Below are positions 3,187 through 61,631 of a stretch of 64,000 nucleotides of DNA, one piece after another. Source of the stretch: Marinitoga sp. 1197 (GTDB lineage: Bacteria; Thermotogota; Thermotogae; Petrotogales; Petrotogaceae). Position 1 is the first letter of the stretch; every line of letters begins with the position of its first letter. Below the pieces are notes generated by a model, which was given only the letters and a program-made list of their open reading frames with translations, was not told the DNA's origin and did not search any database. The stretch lies in NCBI RefSeq assembly GCF_001021165.1, contig NZ_AZAY01000015.1, positions 1 to 64,000 of the forward strand, written 5' to 3'. Position numbers and translations under genes: made by a program.

Positions 3187-3210
3187 CAAAATGAAAAGTG
3201 AATAAAAAAG

Positions 3211-3304
3211 ATCCGCAGGGGAGCTACTAATCCGTAGCTGAGAGTGAGGTGGAAGCCTCTGACCCTTATAACTTGATCTGGTTAATACCAGCGAAAGGAG
3301 CGGA
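3211..3304 (+). promoter_or_regulatory. TPP riboswitch (THI element)
   Basis: The region carries the conserved TPP-aptamer landmarks in order: GGGGAGC near the 5' end, GCTGAGAG at about 3237-3244, CTGACCC at about 3258-3264, and CTTGATCTGGTTAATACCAG followed by CGAAAGGAG. A closing P1 stem pairs TCCGC (3212-3216) with GCGGA (3300-3304). It precedes thiamine biosynthesis genes and is followed by an intrinsic terminator, so binding of thiamine pyrophosphate should shut the operon off by transcription termination. Confidence 0.95.
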
Positions 3305-3320
3305 GCAGAGATAGAAATCA

Positions 3321-59415: not shown

Positions 59416-59772
59416 ATGAAATTAGGTGATGTAATTAAAAGTGCAGATTTTAAAAATGAAAAACATGTACCTGTAATAGATGCTCCAGAAAAAGTTAAAG
59501 CTGATGAATTATTTAAAATTGAAATTCAAGTTGGAAAGGATATACCACACCCTAACACAGTAGAGCATCATATATCCTGGATAGATTTATATATTCATTA
59601 TGAAAATGACCCAAATACAGTTCATTTAGGAAGATTTGAGTTTGGTCCATCAGTAACAGAACCACATGTATTAACTTATGTAAAATTATCAAAAAAAGGA
59701 ACATTAATAGCTCATTCGTATTGTAATATACATGGGCTTTGGGAATCAGAAAAAGTAATTGATGTTGAATAA
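59416..59772 (+). CDS. Superoxide reductase (neelaredoxin type)
   Basis: The 118-residue protein reduces superoxide to peroxide without making oxygen. It has the mononuclear iron ligands in NEKHVPVI, PHPNTVEHHISWI and SYCNIHGLW, and lacks the N-terminal desulforedoxin domain, so it is the one-iron form. The start at 59416 follows GAGGTGA. Peroxide formed here would be removed by the adjacent rubrerythrin. Confidence 0.94.
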   Translation: MKLGDVIKSADFKNEKHVPVIDAPEKVKADELFKIEIQVGKDIPHPNTVEHHISWIDLYIHYENDPNTVHLGRFEFGPSVTEPHVLTYVKLSKKGTLIAHSYCNIHGLWESEKVIDVE

Positions 59773-59800
59773 AGGAATAGCCGTCTGGCTATTCCTTTTT
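59771..59800 (+). terminator. Intrinsic terminator after the superoxide reductase gene
   Basis: AAAGGAATAGCC and GGCTATTCCTTT pair perfectly around GTCT and end in a T-run. Confidence 0.92.
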
Positions 59801-59821
59801 AATATTTTTGTAATAAACATT

Positions 59822-59830
59822 TGTTATAAT
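59822..59830 (+). promoter_or_regulatory. Extended -10 promoter of the hydrogenase maturation operon
   Basis: TGTTATAAT provides a TG-n-TATAAT extended -10 box. No good -35 is visible 17 bp upstream. Transcription would start near 59837, ahead of the structured leader. Confidence 0.6.
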
Positions 59831-59851
59831 AATCACATATAAAGTGAATAA

Positions 59852-59957
59852 TTTCTCCTGAGATGAAGGGAGTAATCCTAACATCAAGGGAGGGGAAATA
59901 ATACGGGATAATAATATTCCCCTTCCTTTGATGTTATATAAGGAAGGGGGATTTTTT
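59852..59957 (+). promoter_or_regulatory. Two-state attenuator-like leader RNA of the hydrogenase maturation operon
   Basis: Two mutually exclusive hairpins share one strand. In one state 59881-59897 (ACATCAAGGGAGGGGAA) pairs with 59917-59934 with one bulge. In the other, 59916-59928 (ATTCCCCTTCCTT) pairs with 59940-59952 and is followed by T residues to 59957, making an intrinsic terminator that also buries the AAGGAAGGGGG ribosome site. The start codon follows at once. A small hairpin CTCC/GGAG with loop TGAGATGAAG lies at 59855-59872. The arrangement is that of a riboswitch or protein-controlled attenuator, but I do not recognise a known aptamer. Confidence 0.7.
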
Positions 59958-60206
59958 ATGGAAAATAAAATTAGTACAGTATCTATAATAGTGTATAACA
60001 GGGAGTTGGCTTACCAAAAAGCAAGTGATATTTTACACAATTATGGAGAAAAAATACTTTTAAGAGTAGGATATCCAATGAGAGAGAAAGATGTAGCGAT
60101 AATATTTTTGGTTGTTGAAATGACGACCGACGAATTAGGAGCATTATCCGGGAAAATTGGGCAGATAGAATCTGTTAAAGTAAAAACAACAACATTAAAG
60201 ATATGA
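59958..60206 (+). CDS. TM1266-type [FeFe]-hydrogenase system regulator
   Basis: The 82-residue protein has an ACT/NikR C-terminal-like fold: ISTVSIIVYNRELAYQKASD, ILLRVGYPMREKDVAIIFLVVEM and LGALSGKIGQIESVKVKT. This matches the TM1266 family, predicted regulators of iron-only hydrogenase systems, which carry no DNA-binding domain. The start is at 59958, where the ribosome site lies in the leader terminator stem. hydG follows 9 bp later. Confidence 0.9.
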   Translation: MENKISTVSIIVYNRELAYQKASDILHNYGEKILLRVGYPMREKDVAIIFLVVEMTTDELGALSGKIGQIESVKVKTTTLKI

Positions 60207-60215
60207 GGTGATAGT

Positions 60216-61631
60216 ATGTTTTATATTAAAGATAAAGATAGTTTGAAATCATTTATTCCTCAGGAAACAATATCTGAATTATTGGAGAAAACTAAAAATC
60301 CTGATCCAGCAAAAGTAAGAGAAATCATTCAAAAGTCATTAAATAAAAATAGGCTTGAACCAGAAGAAATGGCAACATTACTTAATGTAGAAAATAAAGA
60401 TTTATTGGAAGAAGTATTTGAAGGCGCGCGAGAATTAAAAAGGAGAATATATGGTAATAGAATAGTTTTATTTGCTCCATTATATATAGGTAATGAATGT
60501 ATAAACAATTGTCAATATTGTGGATTTAGAATTACCAATAAACATATTGAAAGAAGGAGTCTGTCTTTAGATGAAGTTGTTGAAGAGGTAAAAGCGCTGG
60601 AAACCAAAGGACATAAACGTTTGATAGTGGTTTTTGGGGAACATCCTAAATATGATGCTAAATTTATGACAGAAACAATAAAAACTATTTATGAAACAAA
60701 AGTAGGTAAGGGTGAAATTAGAAGAGTAAATGTAAATGCAGCACCTCAGACAGTTGGAGATTATAAATTATTTAAAGAAGTAGGGATTGGTACATTTCAA
60801 ATATTTCAGGAAACGTATCATTATGAAACATATAAAAAATATCATTTAAGTGGTCCAAAATCTAATTTTCACTGGAGATTGTATGGTTTGGATAGAGCGT
60901 TTGAGGCAGGACTTGATGATGTAGGAATTGGTGCGTTATTTGGGTTATATGATTGGAAATTTGAAGCTATGGGATTATTATATCATACAATTCATTTTGA
61001 AGAAAGATTTAATGTTGGTCCGCATACTATATCTTTTCCTCGTATGGAACCAGCATTAGATACGCCTCTTGCTGAAAGGCCTCCATATACAGTTTCAGAT
61101 GATGATTTTAAAAAATTAGTAGCAATATTAAGATTGGCGGTACCTTATACAGGGTTGATTTTAACAGCACGCGAACCGGTAAAAATACGAAATGAAGTAA
61201 TGAAATTTGGAGTTTCTCAAATTGATGGTGGATCTTCAATTGGTGTTGGGAGTTATCATGAAAGTGATGATGAAAAATTAAAAAGAAGTCAATTTTTATT
61301 AGGAGATAATAGAACATTAGATCAAATTATTGAGGAATTAGCTGAAGAAGGTTATTTGCCATCTTTTTGTACAGGATGTTATAGACTTGGAAGAACAGGA
61401 GAACATTTTATGGAATTTGCTATTCCAGGTTTTGTGAAAAGATTTTGTACTCCAAATGCAATATTAACATTTTTAGAATATATAGAAGATTATGCACCTG
61501 AAAAAACAAAAATAATAGGTATTAGAAGAATAGAAGAAGAAATAAAAAATATGAAAAATAATCCATTGAAAGAACAATTACTTGAAAAAATAGAAAAGGT
61601 TAAAAATGGAGAAAGAGATTTATATTTTTAA
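60216..61631 (+). CDS. hydG: [FeFe]-hydrogenase maturase HydG
   Basis: HydG cleaves tyrosine to make the CO and cyanide ligands of the H-cluster. The 471-residue protein has the radical-SAM cluster C95-C99-C102 (CINNCQYCGFRITNK), HKRLIVVFGEHPK, FQIFQETYHYETYKKYHLSGPK and the HydG-specific C-terminal cluster site: CTGC in PSFCTGCYRLGRTGEHF and the later cysteine in FVKRFCTPN. It follows the TM1266-like gene and precedes hydE. Confidence 0.96.
   Translation: MFYIKDKDSLKSFIPQETISELLEKTKNPDPAKVREIIQKSLNKNRLEPEEMATLLNVENKDLLEEVFEGARELKRRIYGNRIVLFAPLYIGNECINNCQYCGFRITNKHIERRSLSLDEVVEEVKALETKGHKRLIVVFGEHPKYDAKFMTETIKTIYETKVGKGEIRRVNVNAAPQTVGDYKLFKEVGIGTFQIFQETYHYETYKKYHLSGPKSNFHWRLYGLDRAFEAGLDDVGIGALFGLYDWKFEAMGLLYHTIHFEERFNVGPHTISFPRMEPALDTPLAERPPYTVSDDDFKKLVAILRLAVPYTGLILTAREPVKIRNEVMKFGVSQIDGGSSIGVGSYHESDDEKLKRSQFLLGDNRTLDQIIEELAEEGYLPSFCTGCYRLGRTGEHFMEFAIPGFVKRFCTPNAILTFLEYIEDYAPEKTKIIGIRRIEEEIKNMKNNPLKEQLLEKIEKVKNGERDLYF

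Follow-up and report, generated by a model that had tools for sequence, protein, structure and literature searches.

The hyd Locus and Its Leader

The window, the whole 64,000-nucleotide stretch of Marinitoga sp. 1197 DNA that was analyzed, contains genes for rubrerythrin and desulfoferrodoxin and a terminator (59771-59798), then the leader studied here and the TM1266-hydG-hydE-hydF operon. The features of the leader and operon are as follows.

59822-59830, + strand: extended -10 box TGTTATAAT, from sequence
59853-59894, + strand: two-fold-symmetric hairpin (anti-antiterminator), from folding, covariance and symmetry; covariance-model match 59849-59899
59879-59895, + strand: antiterminator 5' strand, overlapping the hairpin 3' half, from folding and co-evolution with its partner strand
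59920-59936, + strand: antiterminator 3' strand, overlapping the terminator 5' arm, from folding
59916-59957, + strand: terminator (stem 59916-59928/59940-59952, T-run 59952-59957), from folding and sequence
59958-60206, + strand: TM1266-like protein, 82 aa, putative regulator and proposed binder; TIGR03959, 88.9 bits (cut-off 60.8); PF21699, 97 bits (cut-off 27)
60216-61631, + strand: HydG; TIGR03955, 501 bits
61647-62750, + strand: HydE; TIGR03956, 309 bits
62765-63973, + strand: HydF; TIGR03918, 526 bits

The first gene product scores above the curated cut-offs of both of its models and is thus a member of the TM1266 family. Far upstream, a TPP riboswitch scored above the Rfam cut-off at 3207-3316, and a ThiH-like gene follows at about 4459.

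A preliminary description of this DNA had proposed an extended -10 box, and TGTTATAAT was recovered as such; since it ends at 59830, transcription is predicted to start near 59837. A weak Rex-like operator, TTGTTATAATAATCACAT (59821-59838), overlaps the -10 box and fits 10 of the 14 consensus positions, a score equaled by ~1 in 10 background stretches. Rex-like sites are similarly placed in several relatives. In Caldicellulosiruptor bescii, a CopG-family regulator and HydG are encoded in a two-gene unit whose ATG is 181 bp away from a Rex operator (PMC6391272), and we infer that the CopG-family gene of that unit is TM1266. For the promoter region there is a second genomic match (locus L002), which has no hairpin motif.

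The Leader Folds into Alternative Structures

When the segment 59836-59961 was folded, the hairpin 59853-59894 formed together with the terminator at 59916-59952 (-39.8 kcal/mol, z -3.4). With the terminator 3' arm absent (59836-59939), folding gave the antiterminator (-33.4 kcal/mol, z -3.6, 0/200 shuffles). The strand 59916-59934 had been predicted to pair in two alternative ways, and the folds agree, with 59879-59895/59920-59936 as the upstream pairing and 59916-59928/59940-59952 as the downstream one. Sequence and fold also bear out the proposed terminator whose T-run touches the start codon and whose stem holds the ribosome site: the Shine-Dalgarno lies inside its 3' arm, and the T-run (59952-59957) directly precedes the ATG at 59958. 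A small hairpin proposed at 59855-59872 did not stand as the functional element, and appeared in the fold as a remnant only once the antiterminator forms; in relatives, conservation and covariation fall on the larger hairpin 59853-59894, which is the conserved element.

Hairpin, antiterminator and terminator are mutually exclusive in the way that a switch needs, a pattern seen in about 45 leaders, and the attenuator layout first suggested for this leader is upheld. The hairpin can coexist with the terminator and not with the antiterminator, which is the layout of a PyrR-type anti-antiterminator. Across the Thermotogota leaders analyzed, the median energies were -17.6 (hairpin), -28.2 (antiterminator) and -21.6 (terminator) kcal/mol, in a table of 55 rows of which a few are Shine-Dalgarno-type leaders wrongly assigned a terminator; a median of 17 pairs can form between the hairpin 3' half and the terminator 5' arm. 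A LicT/SacY-type ribonucleic antiterminator was considered and rejected: the hairpin ends at 59894 and the terminator begins at 59916, so that they do not overlap, and the logic does not fit.

The expression platform differs by lineage, with termination in some and Shine-Dalgarno hiding in others. In Mesoaciditoga-like genomes, KSB1 and others, the hairpin 3' strand runs directly into the Shine-Dalgarno (GAGGAGG, then ATG). In Athalassotoga-type genomes (L142, L156, L166, L170), the motif masks the Shine-Dalgarno of a short ORF; next come a terminator and, after it, hydG, apparently with a promoter of its own. Because hairpin and antiterminator share 59879-59894, whatever holds the hairpin should favor termination, and since the hairpin excludes the antiterminator, binding should mean OFF. 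Where the hairpin 3' strand is joined to the Shine-Dalgarno, a held hairpin should again mean OFF. Judged from the anatomy of both platforms, OFF is probably the direction of control.

The Hairpin Is Symmetric, Conserved and Covarying

In the window, the hairpin is built of three helices (59853-59859/59888-59894, 59862-59865/59882-59885 and 59868-59871/59876-59879) and carries the half-sites CTGA-GATG-AAGG (59858-59869) and CTAA-CATC-AAGG (59878-59889). Throughout the motif, each strand reads 5'-CURA-NNNN-RARG-3', with two 2x2 purine loops around a 4-bp helix. The flanking CURA and RARG are constant, and the central helix is free in sequence with pairing kept (GAUG/CAUC, GGUG/CACC, AAUG/CAUU, UUGC/GCAA, GCUC/GAGC, GUCA/UGAC and others). 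Since the consensus is identical on both strands, the RNA is two-fold symmetric. A kink-turn was rejected, because both loops are symmetric 2x2 loops and there is no three-nucleotide bulge next to tandem G.A pairs.

The preliminary description had suggested looking in relatives for covariation of the alternative stems, and we found it for both the hairpin helices and the antiterminator. Aligned hairpin cores contain compensatory changes, with covariation in three helices and fixed loops. In 92 sequences, which include other phyla and one chance match, 97.1% of cells were paired, vs. 82.5% in shuffled controls and no more than 65.7% in slid ones; cells changed on both sides numbered 153 vs. a shuffled mean of 41. 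This alignment leans toward the model, because it was fitted to the covariance model; MAFFT alignments gave the same picture. The antiterminator strands co-evolve: matched duplexes had a mean of -25.0 kcal/mol vs. -19.2 kcal/mol when arms were swapped between species (0/5000 permutations, in a test that treats species as independent, which they are not).

The hairpin element is absent from the RNA-family databases searched. An Rfam 15 search of the leader, also proposed earlier, brought no known class to its gathering cut-off, and no Rfam family reached this cut-off in the leaders of 16 relatives. Whether thresholds were strict or relaxed, Rfam scans yielded nothing beyond chance hits to microRNA models and leaders below threshold. 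The PyrR binding site (RF00515) was rejected as the identity of the RNA (19.8 bits vs. a cut-off of 54).

Distribution of the Element and Its Target Genes

A covariance search (model R2, E below 1e-4) detected the element in 64 of 103 Thermotogota genomes. It was present in 64 of the 65 genomes with both HydG and TM1266, and in 0/38 outside this set: 0/5 with HydG and no TM1266, 0/2 with TM1266 only (82-83% complete), and 0/31 with neither. The five HydG-only (Petrotoga-type) genomes count as one event, since they form a single clade in which leader and TM1266 were replaced together. Each of the 12 TM1266 loci above the family cut-off in the family to which the window belongs has the leader. 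A second, distant TM1266 relative (L029, L023-L031), below the family cut-off, occurs in many Thermotogota, with no motif found beside it.

Within Thermotogota, the element precedes TM1266, hydG (in Kosmotogaceae and others), a separate hydF, or hydE. In one genus (L154, L155, L168) another gene follows it, in L154 the NADH-dependent [FeFe]-hydrogenase A6. Kosmotogaceae have the motif at hydG and their TM1266 gene at another place in the genome, so that control there would be in trans. One clean motif (locus L175, 601-631) precedes an SsuA/NMT1-like ABC transporter substrate-binding gene, the sole clear non-hydrogenase target.

The element also occurs upstream of TM1266 in Bacillota, KSB1, Neomarinimicrobiota, Riflebacteria and others, and its targets are almost only TM1266, hydE, hydF, hydG or the [FeFe]-hydrogenase itself. 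Of 80 TM1266 loci drawn from many phyla (some Thermotogota included), 35 had the motif ≤400 nt upstream according to a simple descriptor, whose weights were set after many copies had already been seen; the remaining 1.1 Mb gave 2 matches. Among 30 whole bacterial genomes, nearly all from other phyla and in part the source of training sequences, the top R3 match was usually a hyd leader. Weak R1, R2 or R3 matches inside unrelated ORFs were judged to be chance and excluded from the counts (including loci L047, L048, L172, L185, L188-L195, L313, L314, L318, L319, L321-L323 and L325-L329). A made-up TM1266 consensus had no match in viral contigs.

In 293 Clostridia, 13 of the 15 matches with E below 1e-4 were at hyd genes, one of them preceding an aspA-hydF-TM1266-hydG operon. 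The motif was found at 12 of the best 30 clostridial TM1266 loci vs. 2 of 33 genomes with HydG and no TM1266 (Fisher p 0.0018, in a test that ignores kinship and reads the upstream region from a different gene in each group). Many Clostridia with TM1266 have no detectable motif; two (G300 and G143) have it at hydG with no TM1266 detected, and assembly gaps are possible there. Tandem copies ~50 nt apart lie upstream of TM1266 in some Clostridia (L333, L341, L346, L351). Folding, covariation and these searches establish the alternative structures, the presence in many phyla and the target genes.

Candidate Binders of the Hairpin

We favor, with a probability of about 0.6, the reading that the leader is a protein-controlled attenuator, in which TM1266, perhaps with an effector, would bind the hairpin and repress. 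In many phyla the motif lies directly upstream of TM1266. The same consensus on both RNA strands is what is expected of a symmetric protein's site, and a TM1266 dimer would match the symmetry of the RNA. The high-confidence structure model of TM1266 matches first its own crystal structure, 2nzc, and next the C-terminal domain of NikR (Foldseek); by model and fold match, TM1266 consists of a NikR-like regulatory domain alone and lacks a DNA-binding part. Its conserved positions include basic residues and no His or Cys. Co-occurrence may not mean contact, because TM1266 shares one gene module with the motif. The preliminary description had left the choice between a ligand and a TM1266-like protein; the distribution, the two-fold symmetry and a central helix of free sequence favor the protein, and a metabolite riboswitch stays its main rival.

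Such a new small-molecule or cluster-sensing riboswitch, whose hairpin would bind an H-cluster assembly metabolite (SAM, a tyrosine-derived product, iron or a cluster precursor) in the same OFF structure, with TM1266 merely a gene of the module, is in our judgment unlikely. It would account for the switch layout, which is that of transcription-attenuating riboswitches, for the conserved loop bases and for targets confined to one pathway, and it could accommodate the tandem clostridial copies and the two Clostridia in which no TM1266 was found. However, the presence of the motif tracks TM1266, not HydG, the RNA is structurally simple, a symmetric helix that is broken by two 2x2 loops and lacks both a junction and any predicted tertiary pocket, and no Rfam riboswitch matches it. 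Several trans-encoded pathway proteins co-occur with the motif, and another RNA-binding protein, or HydE, HydF or HydG itself, might hold the hairpin with unchanged logic. Yet HydG occurs without the motif in Petrotoga-type genomes and in most Clostridia that have HydG and no TM1266, and TM1266 is the only member annotated as a regulator; we consider a different binder quite improbable. Folding by itself yields both structures, as a plain attenuator or thermosensor without a specific binder would need, but the unpaired loop bases are fixed across phyla while paired bases vary, which calls for a recognizing partner, and the same motif is attached to unrelated expression platforms. We give this last explanation hardly any credence.

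Discussion

In the TM1266 model, the nascent RNA would first fold into the symmetric hairpin 59853-59894. If it stays unbound, the antiterminator would capture the hairpin 3' half, polymerase would read on, and TM1266, HydG, HydE and HydF would be made. The TM1266-like protein, probably as a dimer, would bind the two purine loops and hold the hairpin, possibly only with an effector that reports sufficient H-cluster precursor or hydrogenase. With the hairpin held, the antiterminator could not form, the terminator would, and the operon and its ribosome site would be shut. In other lineages the same hairpin would directly cover the Shine-Dalgarno. The outcome would be negative feedback, as with PyrR; we infer the OFF direction, the binder and any effector from the arrangement of leader and genes.

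In annotations, TM1266 figures as a putative regulator of the iron-only hydrogenase system, and a solved structure exists (2nzc); no reported target was found in the open literature. Nor was any paper found there that connects TM1266 or hyd operons with RNA control, and these genes are not named in the main text of either of two broad RNA-motif surveys. In Thermotoga neapolitana under CO2, TM1266, HydE and HydG are up-regulated together (5.98, 7.52 and 6.39), and HydF less (1.28) (PMC7039931). TM1266 now gains a concrete candidate RNA target, and the [FeFe]-hydrogenase maturation genes, which are central to biological hydrogen, gain a candidate post-initiation control common to many phyla. The chances are about even that there is a widespread class of RNA-binding attenuation regulators with TM1266 as its founding member. 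In this class, a stand-alone NikR-like sensor domain acting on a symmetric hairpin would match the maturation of [FeFe]-hydrogenase (in some lineages also the hydrogenase itself) to the supply of H-cluster in many phyla. Strong covariation, defined half-sites and absence from the searched RNA-family databases make binding, effector and regulation directly testable.

Several known systems resemble parts of this arrangement. On rplJL, L10(L12)4 is an operon protein that binds its own leader and favors termination (PMC4538822); the likeness is an operon-encoded (here putative) protein acting on its own leader, but the window leader scored 23.4 vs. 44 with the L10 leader model. Transcription-attenuating riboswitches share the exclusive antiterminator and terminator and, in other lineages, the versions that hide the Shine-Dalgarno; no known class matches, however, and the element here is a symmetric helix, not a junction or pocket. 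The NikR C-terminal domain resembles the TM1266 model (Foldseek TM-score 0.84), and a clostridial member has a weak Pfam NikR_C match; TM1266 (82 aa), in contrast, has only the C-terminal-type fold, without a ribbon-helix-helix DNA-binding domain and with no conserved His or Cys. In PyrR attenuation, an upstream hairpin held by the protein keeps the antiterminator from forming, so that the terminator can. The hyd leader is alike in that the first gene of the operon encodes the proposed regulator and the held hairpin would block the antiterminator, and it differs in its RNA, in the fold family of its protein and in its two-fold symmetry.
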